From: Terriglobia bacterium
GTDB lineage: Bacteria > Acidobacteriota > Terriglobia > Terriglobales > Acidobacteriaceae
DNA length: 64,000 bases
Assembly (NCBI GenBank): GCA_020072585.1
Contig: JAIQGL010000003.1
Coordinates: 124,001 to 188,000 of the forward strand
Reading direction: 5' to 3'
Shown: positions 29,650 to 36,700 of the stretch, in pieces
Layout: each line of letters begins with the position of its first letter
Position numbering within the stretch: position 1 is the stretch's first letter
Notes under the pieces: model-generated
Database searches by the model: none
Told to the model about the DNA's origin: nothing
The model's input: only the letters and a program-made list of their open reading frames with translations
Program-made: the position numbers and the translations under genes

Positions 29650-30042
29650 ATGGCTGTTACTGAAAGTAAACGCTCTTCCGCCCACGCGCAACCCGCCACA
29701 ACCTCAACCGCAAAACACCGCAGCTCCACCCGCAGACGGCAGCAGCTCCCGGATTCCCTACGCTCCACCGTTACCAAGCGCGGCAAGACCACCATCCGCC
29801 GCTTTCCCGGACGCAGCTTCCACCGCTTTGAAGAAGCCAAAGGCAAGGCCATCGACTACATCGAATTCTTTACCTCTGACGGCTTTCACAACATTGATAT
29901 CGCCTTTGAAGACAGAACCGCCATGCACTTCGTCATTGAGCCCAGTTTTAACCTGGAAACCGACTACGCCGACTGGAAGACCGGCAACTGGCGTTCGCTC
30001 AAACGCTGGCCGCCCATCCGCAGCGCAGGATCTAATTCCTAA
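29650..30042 (+). CDS. Small protein of unknown function (cargo of HTH module 2)
   Basis: The 130-residue product has a basic, Ser/Thr/Arg-rich N-terminus (about 1-55). A compact acidic and aromatic domain follows: FHRFEEAKGKAIDYIEFFTSDGFHNIDIAFEDRTAMHFVIEP, then YADWKTGNWRSLKRWPP. No known domain is recognised. It is not similar to the cargo of module 1 (7688-7972) although its leader is. AAGGAGG precedes the ATG. A perfect hairpin lies 9 bases after the stop. Confidence 0.65.
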   Translation: MAVTESKRSSAHAQPATTSTAKHRSSTRRRQQLPDSLRSTVTKRGKTTIRRFPGRSFHRFEEAKGKAIDYIEFFTSDGFHNIDIAFEDRTAMHFVIEPSFNLETDYADWKTGNWRSLKRWPPIRSAGSNS

Positions 30043-30044
30043 AA

Positions 30045-30079
30045 TGCAAAAAGGCGGACGCGCTCGCGGCGTCCGCCTT
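30045..30079 (-). terminator. Hairpin terminator, probably bidirectional
   Basis: AAGGCGGACGC/GCGTCCGCCTT (11-bp perfect arms, 30051-30061 and 30069-30079) sits between convergent genes. Reading the minus strand, TTTTTGCATTTT follows, so it best serves the beta-barrel gene. Confidence 0.7.
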
Positions 30080-30188
30080 GCTGCGCCATTGAGGGACCTT
30101 GCGTTACTCAAAACATCCAAACTGTACCACTACCAAAAATCCCCGGTGTTGCCCGTGGCTACGCTTCTGCCCCCATAGATCTAGAGGC

Positions 30189-30803
30189 TCAGAACCGCCA
30201 CACCACGCCGCCTGAATACCTAAAACTATTCTGGTGATTGCCGGTGGTGGTGGAAAGTCCGGACGCCAATGCGTCAATGGAGTTGAAATTCGTATATAGG
30301 TAATCCACCTGGGCGGCGCGGATAGCAAAGTGCCGGCTCAGGCCGATATCGACACCGCCGCCGAAGGCCATGGCAAACGCAGTGGCGCTGGTGATGGGCG
30401 CGGAGATTCCGCCGAGAATCGGTACGCTCACTCCGGCCGACAGTTTGGAATGCGCCGCGCCGAACAGTGCGTGCCCGAAGACCGAGCTCTTGCCAAAGTA
30501 AGCGGTTGCCGTGGGGCCGAACAGGAAGTTATAAAGGCTCTGGTCGGCGGAGACGGAGAACCCCAGGCCTGAAATGGAGGCCAGAGTGTGATAGCTGCCG
30601 CTCACGTCAGCGGTGAAGCCAAAATGCGGCGTGAAGTTGAAGGTGCCCTGGCCGTTCCATCCGTTGAAGTTGTTGCTGTTGTTGCGAACCAGGGAATATC
30701 CGCCGAAAATCGTGCCGCGGGTAGCAACATCGTTGCTGTTCTGGGCCATGGCCATGAAGGGTAGACACAAAAAGACACATATTGAAATCACAAGTCTGCG
30801 CAT
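30189..30803 (-). CDS. Outer-membrane beta-barrel protein
   Basis: From ATG 30803 (AGGAGG 6 bases upstream) the product is 204 residues with a signal peptide (MRRLVISICVFLCLPFMAMAQ). The mature part is an eight-strand-like barrel with alternating aromatic and polar residues, e.g. GTIFGGYSLVRNN, GTFNFTPHFGFTADVSGSYH and ALFGAAHSKLSAGVS. It ends in a terminal aromatic (GGVVWRF), the usual outer-membrane insertion signal. It resembles OmpA-like porin-family proteins of Acidobacteria; the ligand is unknown. A longer frame to 30863 has no export signal and is not used. Confidence 0.8.
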   Translation of the reverse strand: MRRLVISICVFLCLPFMAMAQNSNDVATRGTIFGGYSLVRNNSNNFNGWNGQGTFNFTPHFGFTADVSGSYHTLASISGLGFSVSADQSLYNFLFGPTATAYFGKSSVFGHALFGAAHSKLSAGVSVPILGGISAPITSATAFAMAFGGGVDIGLSRHFAIRAAQVDYLYTNFNSIDALASGLSTTTGNHQNSFRYSGGVVWRF

Positions 30804-31093
30804 GCTCGCCTCCTGAAGAGGAATTCTCATATATGTGAGATGCGGGGTTACGAGCGCACGCAATGGTTATATGGTGTCAAGAAATGTATTGCTCAGAGTG
30901 GGATGCATTGAAGAATTGTAATGATTGGCGGTGGTCAGTTCCGTCCCGCAAAGCATCAGGCCTTTCTTGGCGCAATCGGCGCTGCGTCATCGTCCGAGAC
31001 CAGCAGACTGATACAATCTGCCCAACGAGTTGTTGACACTTAACCTGACTCAAGACGAGAAATCTTGCAGCCCCACAAGGAGGAAAAAATCCA
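30804..31093. other. Divergent intergenic region, nothing assignable
   Basis: The spacer between the divergent barrel and cupin genes holds no gene or clear structured element. A TTGACA-like hexamer near 31032 has no good -10 at 17 bp. Confidence 0.5.
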
Positions 31094-31534
31094 ATGTATA
31101 GGAAAGCGTTTTCGGTCCTGGTATTGGCGCCTTTGCTGGCGGTCAGCGCCGGCTTGGCGCAAGATCCCACCAAGGTGGAATCGACACACTACAGGTTAGG
31201 CTTTGAAAACGAGCGAGTGCAGGTTGTTTATATCCACTATGGACCGCACGAGAAGTCAACAATGCATGACCACCCCGGCGGCGTTGTGGTGAACCTCACC
31301 AACGGCCATCTGAAATTTACCGACCCAAAAGGGAGTGTCCAGGACATACGGGCGATTCACGGTGAAGCAAGGTGGTTTCCGCCGTTCAAGCACAAGGTTG
31401 AGAACCTGAGCGACACTGCCTATGACGGCATTTACATTGCAGTCAAGGGGAATGCCGGTTCAACCGCAAACGCGCAGGGCATGGATGAAATGACAGCGCA
31501 GATCGTGCTTGCCGCATTGCGGTCCCAGCATTGA
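31094..31534 (+). CDS. Secreted cupin-domain protein
   Basis: The 146-residue product carries a signal peptide (MYRKAFSVLVLAPLLAVSAGLAQ) and a single cupin barrel. YGPHEKSTMHDHPGGVVVNLTNG matches cupin motif 1 with metal-ligand histidines, and GEARWFPPFKHKVENLSD supplies motif 2. Members bind a divalent metal and may be oxygenases, isomerases or binding proteins; this one is unassigned. AAGGAGG lies 10 bases upstream of the ATG. Confidence 0.8.
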   Translation: MYRKAFSVLVLAPLLAVSAGLAQDPTKVESTHYRLGFENERVQVVYIHYGPHEKSTMHDHPGGVVVNLTNGHLKFTDPKGSVQDIRAIHGEARWFPPFKHKVENLSDTAYDGIYIAVKGNAGSTANAQGMDEMTAQIVLAALRSQH

Positions 31535-31655
31535 ACCCTACGTGTACCCCGTCACACTAAGGCAAGAGAAAAACAAATCAAAAAGATGGGCGGTGCAGAG
31601 CGCCGTAAAGACTTCCTTTGTTTTCTCCGCGGCTCCGCGGTGAAAAATTCCTGGT

Positions 31656-32192
31656 CTACCCCGGTATTGCGGCCAGAATATCTTTGGGCGCGGCGTTGTC
31701 ACCAAACGTCTCACTCACGTGGACGAAGAGGTCTTTGTTTCCTGGCGCAAACACAAAACTGCCGCCGAGTTGCAATGGGTCTTTTCCCAGTTTGTGTTGT
31801 TTGTGGCCGCCGGCCTTGGCGCGGCGGCGGGCCTGCATGTTGTCGCGCCGCAGAAGGTGGAGCAGGGAAGCGTGCTTCAGGCCAACGGTCTTGTAGGCTT
31901 CGCGCTTCTCGTCAATCAGGAGCGGGAACTTGATGCCGGTTTTTTCGCGGAAGAACTTGGCATAGCTGACGTCGCCCAGACCAACCACGGCGATCCGCGC
32001 GCCTTTGCTGCGGAACTGCTCCTCGAATTCGCGCAACTGCGCGACGTGTTCACCGCAGAAAATTCAACCGTAATGGCGGAGAAAGACCAGCACTGCCGGA
32101 CCGCTTTGCCACAGAGAGCCCAGGCGCATTGACTTGCCCTCTGGGTCGGGCAGGGTAATTCCCGCAAGCTTGCTGCTGAATGATTCAGCCAT
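31656..32192 (-). CDS. Peroxiredoxin-like (AhpC/TSA-type) protein, probable selenoprotein with in-frame UGA
   Basis: Read from ATG 32192 on the minus strand, the frame gives MAESFSSKLAGITLPDPEGK ... AVLVFLRHYG, then UGA (32066-32064, codon 43). It continues IFCGEHVAQLREFEEQFRSK ... RIAVVGLGDVSYAKFFREKTG to a normal stop at 31656, 178 residues in all. This is a complete thioredoxin-fold AhpC/TSA_2-type protein in which UGA replaces the first Cys of the RHYGCxFC redox motif. A stem-loop suited to a bacterial SECIS follows. The simplest reading is selenocysteine in a UxxC motif. An ATG-initiated frame starting inside the gene (32036) would lack the active site. A nonsense mutation cannot be excluded without selA/selB/selC evidence. 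Confidence 0.8.
32029..32044 (-). promoter_or_regulatory. Candidate bacterial SECIS stem-loop
   Basis: Downstream of the UGA, UCGCGC-AGUU-GCGCGA forms a 6-bp stem with a 4-base loop. The loop starts 26 bases after the UGA and has G at its second position. This agrees with the published bacterial SECIS pattern (small apical loop with an early G, about 16-37 bases from the UGA). Confidence 0.6.
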
Positions 32193-32365
32193 GCCGACAT
32201 TCTCTTGGGTGCTGGCAAGGCTGTCAAGCCAATGCACTGATTATGGCGGCAGATGTCAGCCTGCCCATGTTGAGACATATATATAAGGAGGAAAGAAGCC
32301 GGATTTTCAAATTTAAAATTGGAAATTTAAAAATAACTTCAAGGATTTGTTATGCTTGCCTCGGT

Positions 32366-33226
32366 ATGCGAGAAATCCGTGGTGCAGTTGCAGTTGTAAC
32401 CGGAGCGGCGTCAGGAATCGGCCGCGCCCTGGCGGTGGATCTGGCAAAACTTGGCGCTCAGCTTGCTCTGGCCGATTTGAACACCGTCGGGCTGGAAGAG
32501 ACGCGCAAGCTTCTGGGGCCGGCTATCGCCCGTACTTATTCGGTGGACGTCTCTCAGGCCGCGGCGGTGGAAGACTTTGCGCGCAGGGTGCAACAGGATT
32601 TTGGCCGCGCATCACTACTGGTGAACAATGCCGGCGTGGCGTTGATGGGGACATTTGCTGAAGTCTCACTGGAAGACATGCAGTGGCTGATCGGCATTAA
32701 TTTCTGGGGCGTGGTCCACGGATGCAAGTTTTTTCTGCCGCTGCTGCAACGTGAACCCGATGCGCACATCGTGAACGTCTCAAGTATCTTTGGTCTGATT
32801 GGCCCGCCGGGACAGACGGCGTATGCGTCGAGCAAGTTTGCCGTTCGCGGGTTCAGTGAGTCGCTGCGCGAAGAGCTGCGCGCAGGCTCGGCGATTAAGG
32901 TTACATCCGTTCATCCGGCAGGAATCGCTACGCCGATTGCACACAACGCGCGGGCTTTCAGCGGCGCCACAGCGGCAGTCAGGCAGGAAGCCGAAGAATA
33001 CTTCAAGAAAGTTGCCGTGATTACGCCGGAAGAAGCTGCGCGCGTGATTGTGAAAGGGATTCTGGGAAACAAGAACCGTGTGCTGATCGGCGCGGACGCT
33101 TACAGGATTGACCGGATACAGCGTCTTTTTCCCGCCCGCGCCAGCGCCATGTTTGCCAACTGGCTGGAGAAACGCCGGGGGAAGAAAGAGCCGGAGCCGG
33201 TGGCAAGCGTCTCCAAAACCGTATAG
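32366..33226 (+). CDS. Short-chain dehydrogenase/reductase
   Basis: From ATG 32366 the product is 286 residues with a classical SDR layout. VVTGAASGIGRAL is the cofactor glycine motif, LVNNAGVALMG the NNAG motif, and NVSSIFGLIGPPGQTAYASSKFAV gives the Ser-Tyr-Lys active site (YASSK). The segment ADLN after the second strand suggests NAD(H). It lies divergent from the selenoprotein-like gene. The C-terminal 50 residues (RIDRIQRLFPARASAMFANWLEK) resemble acetoin or lipid-related SDRs. Substrate unknown. Confidence 0.88.
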   Translation: MREIRGAVAVVTGAASGIGRALAVDLAKLGAQLALADLNTVGLEETRKLLGPAIARTYSVDVSQAAAVEDFARRVQQDFGRASLLVNNAGVALMGTFAEVSLEDMQWLIGINFWGVVHGCKFFLPLLQREPDAHIVNVSSIFGLIGPPGQTAYASSKFAVRGFSESLREELRAGSAIKVTSVHPAGIATPIAHNARAFSGATAAVRQEAEEYFKKVAVITPEEAARVIVKGILGNKNRVLIGADAYRIDRIQRLFPARASAMFANWLEKRRGKKEPEPVASVSKTV

Positions 33227-33716
33227 CGCACGCCACGCTTGATCGAACGGAATGGGATGGAGCTAGGATTAAGTATTTTGCCCGAAGAAGGCCCGCCGCA
33301 TGCGAATATGGCCGTTTTTTTGACAATTCTTGCCTGCCGGGACATAATTCCACGCGGCTCTACTCCGTCGATCGTGCGTTGGCTGGTTCGCCTGATAAAA
33401 AAATCTGATGCATGAATGGCGATTTTGCCATAGAGTTGTCCCGGATCTTTCGAGCGCCCGAATTTTTGGCCTCATGGCTGGAACGGTATTGAGTCTTCGT
33501 TCATGGGCGTTTTACACAAGCAATAAGGTTTTAGTTTGAATAAGCCGTTAAGCGCGATCATGTGGGATAATACTCGGCCAATGAAGGGCGTTAGTACTAT
33601 TCGTCTCATGAATGAGCACTCATTCACGCATCTGCTGGCGTTTTCGGTCGTCTCACTCGAGCGAAAACACCGGACCAATCTCCCAACGTTTCGCCACTTG
33701 CCATCTTGGAGGGTTT
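33227..33716. other. Intergenic region upstream of TonB-dependent receptor
   Basis: No gene is seen in these 490 bp. A palindrome lies at 33608-33625 (separate entry) and GATAAT at 33566-33571 may be a -10 element. Confidence 0.5.
33608..33625. promoter_or_regulatory. Palindromic operator candidate upstream of the receptor gene
   Basis: TGAATGAG-CA-CTCATTCA has 8-bp perfect arms and lies 91 bp before the ATG. Operators of this form are common for TetR-family repressors; the cognate regulator is not in the window. Confidence 0.5.
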
Positions 33717-36700
33717 ATGAGGTCTAGAATCCATCTGTTCAGAATTGTTCTTGCGTGCCTGCTGTTTACCGGCATGGTTTACGCGCAGGGTGTCGGCGCT
33801 TCGGGTGACATAAAAGGCACTGTCACAGATCCGTCTGGCGCCGTTGTCGGAAATGCGACAGTCACGGCTACAGATGTGGCCAAAGGAATCAAGCACACGG
33901 TGAGCACGGATAACAATGGCCAATTTCGCTTGACCGGTTTACCTCCGGCCACATACAGCGTGGGGGTCGCAAAAGCGGGCTTCCAGTCTGAGATCGCGAA
34001 AAATGTAGTGGTGAATATCGGCCAGACCAGCACAGTCGATTTCCCCATGAAGGTCTCGCAGGTTTCCGAACAGATTGAAGTCACCGCTGAACCACCGGTG
34101 GTCGAGACTGAGAGAGGCGGGCAGGCAAACGTTGTCAATGAGCAATATATTCGCGAATTGCCCATCAATCGTCGCGACTATCTGACATTCACCCTGCTGG
34201 CGCCGGCAGTGTCTGATTCAACCCGGCTCGCTTCCGACCAGGACTACCGCGTGAAGCAGACCCCGCAGAGCGGCCTCTCCTTCTATGGCAGCAATGGCCG
34301 TGGCAACAGCGTAACCGTCGACGGCGGAGAAGTGAATGATGATGCGGGCGGCGTCAGACTGAATATGTCCCAGGATGCCGTGCAGGAATTCCAGATCAAC
34401 CGCAGCAACTACGGCGCTGATCTCGGCGGAGCCAGTGGCGCGACGATTAACATCGTGACAAAATCCGGCGGCAATGACGTTCACGGCACGCTCTTCGGTT
34501 ACTTCCGCAATGACGCGGTGGATGCAGCCAACCCGTTCTCCATCAGCCAGGCCCTCGCTCCAGGACAGACATTTAATCCTGCTGCACCGGATGTGCACGG
34601 CTCGCATGTTAAGGACACATTGACGCGCGAACAATTTGGCGGTTCCATTGGCTTTCCCATCACCAAGGACAAAACCTTCCTGTATAGCTCTTTTGAAGGC
34701 TTGTTGGGTGATGCACAGAACGCTGTTCCGCTGTTGACCAGCACCAGCATCTTCCGGCCTCAGGCCACTTCAGGAAATAATCAGCAGGCGATTTTGACCG
34801 GATTGGCTGGCCTTGCGGGCAACCCGCCGGTTCCATGTCTTACCGGTCAGCCGGCCCTGCCGGCGGCGACTTGCGCGGCGATCCTGACGAATATTCTTAC
34901 CGTCAATCCCGCCACTAGCCCGTTGAACAAGTTTCTTGTGAATCAGTTTGAAAGCAATGGCGGTCTTTTTCCTTATAACAACCGCCTCTACCTGGCCTCT
35001 ACTCGATTTGACCACCAGTTCAGTGATCACAATCAAATTGCCCTGCGCTATAGCTTTGGGCATGATCTGGAAGAGAATCCTGACGTGACCTCTCTCACCG
35101 GCTTCTCGCGCGGAAGTTCCGTGAAAGCCTTTGACCATACATTGCTGGCGTCATGGTTTCACCAGTTCAGCGGCAAGACGCTGAATGAGGCGCGCGTCCA
35201 GTGGAATTATTCGAATTTTGACGTGATTCCCAACACTCCCGGGGAAGTCGGGCTGGATATCCCGGGTTTTGGCAACCTCGGCACACAAATCTTCCTGCCC
35301 AGCTTTACCATCATGCGCCGCTATGAATTTGCCGACAACGTGAGCATGGTTCGCGGCAAGCACAACATCAAGTTCGGCGGCTATGAACTGATTCGTGGCA
35401 ACCACTCTGAGTCTCACACGTTCTTCCCCGGACGTTTTGTCTTCGGCAACTTGCCTGGCGGACTTCTAAGCCCCTGCCTCCAGGTTCCTGCTGCATGCGG
35501 ATTAACCACCGCTGCCGCCACTCTTACCTCGCTGCAATCCGCATCGCTCGGGTTGCCCCAGTTCTATCAGCAGGGTTTCGGCAATCCCAATTACAACTAT
35601 CCGCGGCCTTTCACAGCGGCCTTTGTCCAGGACCAATGGTCCATGACGCCCAACTTTACCTTGAATGTGGGCGTGCGCTATGAACTGGATGCACAATATG
35701 GCGCGTTAAGCACAGACAAAAACAATTTTGCTCCCCGCGCCTCATTTGCCTGGGACCCGTTCAAGGACCACAAGACCGTAATCCGCGCCGGCTATGGCAT
35801 CTTCTACTCGTCTGTCTATGGCCAGATTGCTGACGTGGTGCAGACACTTGGTGTCGTCAACGGCAACCGTCAAATTGCTCAAACCTTCGTGCCGCTTACC
35901 GGCGCTCCGGGCAATCCGGCTTTGACTTCGGCTGCGATCTTCCAAACCTTGTTTGCTCAGGGCAAAGTGCAGTGCACCACGCCCGCCGCGGGTAATGCAG
36001 CCTGCATCACGCCGGCAGACCTGACCCAGTTCGGCATCAACATCACGCACACCGGCCCGGTTCCTCCGCTCAGCGTGGTATTTAGCGGCCAGTCGGACTA
36101 TAAGAACCCATACTCGCAGCAAGCTGAAGTTGGCATTGAGCGTGAGATCGCTAAAGGCTGGTCTGTAGCGCTCAGTGGTATCTACGTTCACACTATCGGG
36201 CTGCCGGTTGCAATTGATATCAACGACTTGTCCACGGCTCCGACTTCCAACATCACTTTGTCCAACGGCGTTGTGGTTCCTGTTAGGAACTTCAATACCA
36301 GCACCAGCAATCCGCTCACTCCCGGTTTGGCTCCTTGCGGCGGCGCGGCGATTGTCACCTGTTTTGGCAACCCGTTGCTGCTCCAGGGCGATCAGTATTC
36401 TTCCAAGGGCGCGTCCCTCTATGAAGGCGCGATCCTGGAAGTCAAAAAGCGCTTCAGCAGTCACTTCTCTGTGCTGGCGAACTATACCCTGAGCAAGGCG
36501 TTCGATACCACGACCGATTTCAACAGCGACTTTGGTCCGCAGAACAACACCAACCTCGCTGCCGAACGTGGCTTGTCTAACTTCGATCAGCGCCACAAGG
36601 TCGTGATCGCCACGGTCGTCGATACGGGAAACTCCGGTGGACGCATTTTCTCCGGCTTCCAGTTGGCGCCGATCTTCCGCTATAACAGCGGCCACCCGTT

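Follow-up and report, generated by a model that had tools for sequence, protein, structure and literature searches.

Human prostamide/prostaglandin F (PGF) synthase has endoperoxide-reducing activity, and the motif of the selenoprotein SelL is UxxU. SelL is a Prx-like protein with a diselenide that occurs in fish, invertebrates and marine bacteria, according to the accessible portions of its descriptions (PMC2397514, PMC2398784). In the accessible portions of the tables of prokaryotic selenoproteins, a PF00578 group with UxxC or UxxU is termed 'Prx-like thiol:disulfide oxidoreductase' (PMC13188914, PMC9312934), a selenoprotein peroxiredoxin with the motif TxxU is likewise placed under PF00578 (PMC13188914 / PMC9312934), and the table of 2022 gives a UxxS form under AhpC-TSA_2 (PMC9312934). 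A UxxC subfamily of AhpC-TSA_2 is without a separate entry in these portions of the tables (PMC13188914, PMC9312934), and neither SelL nor the NCBIfam family NF040769 appears in the accessible main text of PMC13188914. Among the papers listed in searches of open-access literature, we found neither an acidobacterial form of the protein described here nor a 'SelL-related redox protein' by that name.

The gene under study is encoded on the minus strand of the window, i.e., the whole stretch of 64 kb of DNA that was analysed, and comprises four features.

31656..32192, minus strand: coding sequence of a predicted UxxC SelL-related / AhpC-TSA_2 selenoprotein of 178 aa, with ATG start and TAG stop (translation with TGA as U; Pfam and NCBIfam matches).
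32064..32066, minus strand: in-frame UGA, predicted to be read as selenocysteine, codon 43 (translation; the same codon is UGA in relatives).
32055..32057, minus strand: UGC codon for Cys46, which presumably acts as the resolving residue of the UxxC motif (translation; all 20 aligned sequences have Cys or Sec here, the Sec being that of UxxU forms and read as Cys).
32029..32044, minus strand: predicted bacterial SECIS hairpin UCGCGC-AGUU-GCGCGA, stem 32044-32039 with 32034-32029, loop 32038-32035 (folding, covariation, synonymous constraint and published bSECIS constraints).

We consider it highly probable (roughly 0.94) that this gene encodes a selenoprotein, in which decoding of codon 43 by SelB and Sec-tRNA-Sec would yield a Sec43-x-x-Cys46 redox protein with thioredoxin fold that belongs to the SelL-related (AhpC-TSA_2) group. 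Translation bears out the ORF, its strand, the site of the UGA (32066-32064, codon 43) and the UxxC spacing that a first-pass annotation had read from the sequence: the minus-strand frame from the ATG at 32192 to the TAG at 31656 is interrupted solely by this UGA, and with the UGA translated as Sec the read-through product comprises 178 residues with the motif RHYG-U-IF-C. The same annotation had held that read-through restores a full-length AhpC/TSA-like domain, and the product indeed matches Pfam AhpC-TSA_2 (PF13911) with 67.6 bits at a gathering cut-off of 27. It also matches AhpC-TSA (PF00578, 46.8 bits) and Redoxin, and passes the curated cut-off of 120 bits of the NCBIfam model NF040769.1 (SelL_rel_redox) with 133.6 bits. 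The ATG at 32192 is the probable start of the gene, given that the window reads NVG-MAES where relatives L010 and L011 read MSG-MAES, an apparent one-base difference. As foreseen in the first-pass annotation, automatic procedures truncate the gene; in this frame the mechanical ORF list has just a 126-aa ORF whose TTG start lies past the UGA (32036-31656). A plain ORF list thus reduces to its last 126 residues what our analysis supports as a selenoprotein gene. A mechanical scan of the 64-kb window for read-through frames with UxxC or CxxU returned 11, including the one at 32066.

The predicted protein resembles the SelL-related family NF040769 in its score above the cut-off, its AhpC-TSA_2 domain and the position of Sec as first active-site residue. 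It is, by its sequence, a new UxxC member of an established selenoprotein kind, for which an NCBI family model exists. SelL in the strict sense differs in its UxxU motif, which is UIFC here. As only one Sec is encoded, a diselenide inside one chain is impossible, and the expected bond, with UxxC in place of UxxU, is a selenenylsulfide. The PF00578 UxxC/UxxU group, as described in the accessible portions of the tables, shares with our protein the UxxC motif in an AhpC/TSA-like domain and the match to PF00578, whereas the best Pfam match here is PF13911. The TxxU peroxiredoxins of the same tables are similar in their related fold and presumed peroxide chemistry, but here His instead of Thr is located three positions before Sec (H-Y-G-U), and a second active-site Cys follows three residues past Sec.

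The AlphaFold2 model of the protein (pLDDT 94.3, pTM 0.90) has its best PDB matches in human prostamide/PGF synthase (9usa and 9us9), with a TM-score by query length of 0.81 and 25% identity for 9usa, followed in the structure ranking by Bcp-type peroxiredoxins and ResA. Human prostamide/PGF synthase also comes first in the sequence search (E 1.5e-10). The Cys pair of the human protein has its counterpart here; Cys44 and Cys47, as named in the title of the PDB entry, align to Sec43 and Cys46, with the difference that the human protein has Cys where our protein would have Sec. Fold and motif together suggest that the protein is likely a UxxC selenol/thiol oxidoreductase or peroxidase with Sec43 as attacking and Cys46 as resolving residue. 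Briefly, SelB with Sec-tRNA-Sec would bind the hairpin that starts 20 nt past the UGA, and selenocysteine would be inserted at codon 43 to give the 178-residue thioredoxin-fold protein with its Sec43-x-x-Cys46 active site. The substrate attacked by Sec43 might then be a peroxide or of disulfide type; Cys46 might resolve the Sec43 intermediate as a selenenylsulfide, and a thioredoxin-like partner could reduce the latter again.

One alternative concerns the role of this same selenoprotein, which could be thiol-disulfide exchange, as reductase or isomerase, and not reduction of peroxides. The UxxC motif mirrors the CxxC seen in thioredoxin-like oxidoreductases, and structures of the ResA type come shortly after PGF synthase in the ranking. 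The 'Prx-like thiol:disulfide oxidoreductase' of the tables, in their accessible portions, covers the PF00578 proteins with UxxC or UxxU (PMC13188914, PMC9312934). On the other hand, the closest match in both fold and sequence is a human enzyme that reduces endoperoxides, and Bcp-type peroxiredoxins also stand high in the structure ranking. We therefore give a role in thiol-disulfide exchange a substantial chance, at somewhat below even odds. The gene neighbourhood was surveyed through 612 flanking ORFs of at least 90 aa, taken from the 3-kb flanks of 37 relatives and from the window, and no group among them spanned more than three loci; the two groups that spanned three consisted of the window and its near kin L070 and L108. 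Neighbouring genes are common to near kin only and are without help on function.

The first-pass annotation had proposed a search of the genome for selA, selB, selC and selD, and all four are present. Matches were obtained for tRNA-Sec (73.9 bits; tRNA-SeC with anticodon tca according to ARAGORN), SelA (542.7 bits), SelB (385.2 bits) and SelD (371.5 bits), the last with one in-frame TGA inside the match. Among the nine genomes of the genus, cut-offs were passed by selA in nine, selB in eight, and selD and tRNA-Sec in seven each. The gaps fall on genomes that are fragmented, i.e., G008 (850 contigs; without selB, selD and tRNA-Sec), G006 (360 contigs; without selD) and G005 (590 contigs; without tRNA-Sec). 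SelD of the genus is itself UGA-coded, with KAAGUASK in L032, L033 and L034 and a strong hairpin directly past the UGA (G000:C72:81590-82516). In addition, G001 has two selA matches above cut-off (C53, C176) and G002 two tRNA-Sec matches above cut-off, one of them at G002:C190:14815-14909.

Contrary to the expectation that examples in Acidobacteria are few, the Sec trait is common in the phylum, with selA in 192 of 297 sampled genomes, as against the four selenoproteins in three families that a 2006 survey, in its accessible portion, credited to the phylum (PMC1794560). All 21 sampled genomes in which a U-form was read have selA. Presence of selA also follows presence of TGA; selA was found in 61 of 64 genomes with TGA in a listed match and in 26 of 49 without (Fisher p 1.2e-7, with kinship ignored), where the comparison covers the 113 of 145 matching genomes with matches listed and a genome is TGA-bearing if TGA occurs anywhere in any listed match. 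The three genomes with TGA in a listed match in which selA was not found (G112, G148, G234) are in 750 contigs, in 650 contigs or 77% complete.

Bacterial SECIS elements have, according to the accessible portion of PMC13188914, a loop of 3-9 nt with a G within its first two positions, a stem of 4-16 bp, a distance from UGA to loop of 16-37 nt and an energy of -7.5 kcal/mol or lower. The hairpin past codon 43 lies within all of these limits, with a 4-nt loop in which G is second and followed by U, a 6-bp stem, a UGA-to-loop distance of 25 nt and an energy of -9.6 kcal/mol, which agrees with the bacterial SECIS geometry that had been claimed for it. The 6-bp stem and the AGUU loop are also as first described. 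The statement that the stem starts 26 bases after the UGA needs correction, as the stem begins at the 20th nucleotide (32044) and it is the loop that begins at the 26th (32038). Taken alone, the hairpin (17 nt) has an energy of -9.6 kcal/mol with a z of -2.49, whereas the 40-nt stretch around it is only as stable as its shuffles (z -0.04), and stability alone is thus insufficient as proof. An Rfam scan of 30000-34000 gave three matches, all below the family cut-offs and with no SECIS among them.

Comparison among relatives is more informative on the hairpin. Across 28 loci with a U-form, 27 of them distinct, 78.4% of cells are paired (shuffled mean 65.2), both sides have changed in 17 cells (mean 6.8) and the covariation score is 0.327 (mean 0.157); none of 500 shuffles reached any of these three values. 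Two-sided changes occur in all six pairs, a count that 22 of 500 shuffles match or surpass, and the further pair types number 12, which 30 of 500 shuffles match or surpass. Controls slid along the sequence score below the real position for paired cells, for cells with both sides changed and for the covariation score; for the number of pairs changed on both sides and for further pair types, slides by +2 and +3 are level with it or above it. Seven of the 28 U-form loci of the phylum have four or fewer of the six pairs at the hairpin site, and in two of these (L048, L052) another hairpin folds a few nucleotides earlier.

A second set is made up of 74 U-form relatives from the best 80 of at least 535, among which six pairs are formed in 60, five in 12 and four in two. 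The codons within this stretch are strongly biased in the 74 relatives, a set that is without L096 and L122 and was found partly via the amino acids of the hairpin stretch, in degenerate codons: Leu at +10 is UUG in 74 of 74, compared to 10.6% of the 1018 Leu codons in the rest of the genes, Ala at +8 is GCG in 72 of 74, compared to 33.4% of 1019 Ala elsewhere, Val is GUC in 65 of the 69 that have Val, compared to 47.8% of 496 elsewhere, and Gln of the hairpin region is CAG in 74 of 74. In the 28 loci, which were obtained by protein search alone, 20 of the 23 that encode Leu at +10 use UUG, so this codon is not universal in distant U-forms. These comparisons confirm that the hairpin is real and covarying and that its codons are under constraint at the RNA level. 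A near-invariant hairpin with one loop codon fixed in 74 of 74 relatives across several phyla also provides a data set on the demands that SelB makes on a SECIS. The hairpin is not exclusive to U-forms; among the best 80 of at least 535 relatives, four Cys-forms retain three, four, five and six of the six stem pairs. Three of these Cys-forms, L125, L147 and L148 from Actinomycetota, with four to six of six pairs, constitute one group in the tree, and their hairpin is possibly the remnant of a SECIS after a change from Sec to Cys.

The codon could in principle be read through as a residue other than Sec, such as near-cognate Trp or Cys, given that some stop codons leak and that Sec is predicted here from sequence. 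The complete Sec system of the genome, the SECIS-type hairpin under RNA-level selection and the homologues with Cys at the UGA column all argue against such read-through, which we regard as very improbable, and favour insertion of selenocysteine.

The position of the UGA is conserved together with the frame around it. All nine genus genomes examined, including that of the window, have an orthologue that aligns with Sec at the same column; in eight of them it is whole and has exactly one stop, which is TGA, and in G005 it is divided between two contigs with TGA in the N-terminal half. Beyond the genus, the nearest U-forms are those of G254, G196, G245 and G023 (56-67% identity), with more distant ones elsewhere among the 297 phylum genomes. 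In 41 loci, including the window's own, the codon-43 column has TGA in 28 and TGC or TGT in 13; these loci are the 45 fetched minus L017, which has the C-terminal half only, and L022, L024 and L025, which are remote or short. The alignment of Cys homologues that had been recommended thus gave Cys at the UGA column in 13 of 41 loci, and the claim that the UGA takes the place of the first Cys of the motif holds, as CxxC homologues have Cys at this column. Codon 43 is TGA in 75, TGC in three, TGT in one and GGA in one of the best 80 of at least 535 relatives from named genomes, with L096 (GGA) and L122 (TGA) outside the motif pattern and read separately. There is overlap between the sets, as at least nine of the 80 records also belong to the phylum and genus genome set. 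Of the two patterns used in the search, one covers the second half of the motif and misses codon 43, and the other requires Cys there; the set of relatives is therefore unbiased towards UGA. The Sec site is thus retained throughout one genus and beyond.

An ordinary stop at codon 43, which would imply a pseudogene or two short proteins, could be read from the ORF list, in which the downstream TTG ORF of 126 aa would be one of the two. Yet seven other members of the genus, at 67-85% identity, retain the frame over its full length; their codon 43 is likewise UGA, and no further stop occurs. A stop there would moreover split the active-site motif, of which R39, H40 and residues 43 and 46 are, together with F37, invariant in 20 of 20 aligned sequences (Sec read as Cys). 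We reject a pseudogene or ordinary stop on this conservation of frame, UGA and motif, and leave it only a slight residual chance. Although one genome by itself could not exclude a sequencing or assembly error with TGC or TGT (Cys) as the true codon, which the first-pass annotation had named as grounds for refutation, TGA in nine of nine genus genomes removes this worry, and the TGA shared with these and with 75 of the best 80 of at least 535 named-genome relatives already refutes an error, whose probability we take to be negligible.

A tree of 107 sequences places the protein of the window within a group of 42 rows that consists of UxxC rows only (SH-aLRT 99), and requires eight changes among the UxxC, UxxU and CxxC states compared to a mean of 19.1 in shuffles; the tree is from a quick search, contains several long branches and omits L018, L054, L060, nine duplicates, L096 and L122. 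It is tempting to propose a distinct UxxC AhpC-TSA_2 selenoprotein subfamily in Acidobacteriota, Myxococcota and some Actinomycetota, in which Sec would nearly always be kept over Cys and a near-invariant SECIS be shared across phyla, and which may be a main use of selenium in Acidobacteria. We regard this proposal as tentative and, taken as a whole, rather unlikely to hold.

Several relatives depart from the common pattern. In L096 from Terriglobia, GGA (Gly) replaces the UGA, the SECIS hairpin is intact and some three residues are missing shortly past the motif. An assembly error could account for this, as could a recent loss or decay of the copy. L043, L044 and L046, from genomes G016, G180 and G156 of the same phylum, have two UGA codons and a UxxU motif, as is typical of SelL. 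The distant L054 and L060 (genomes G107 and G278) have one TGA at the codon-43 column in the motifs WUPFC and WUPYC. The frame of L060 continues into a long repeat region that resembles a beta-propeller by eye, and L060 is perhaps a Sec-containing Prx-like domain fused to a beta-propeller.
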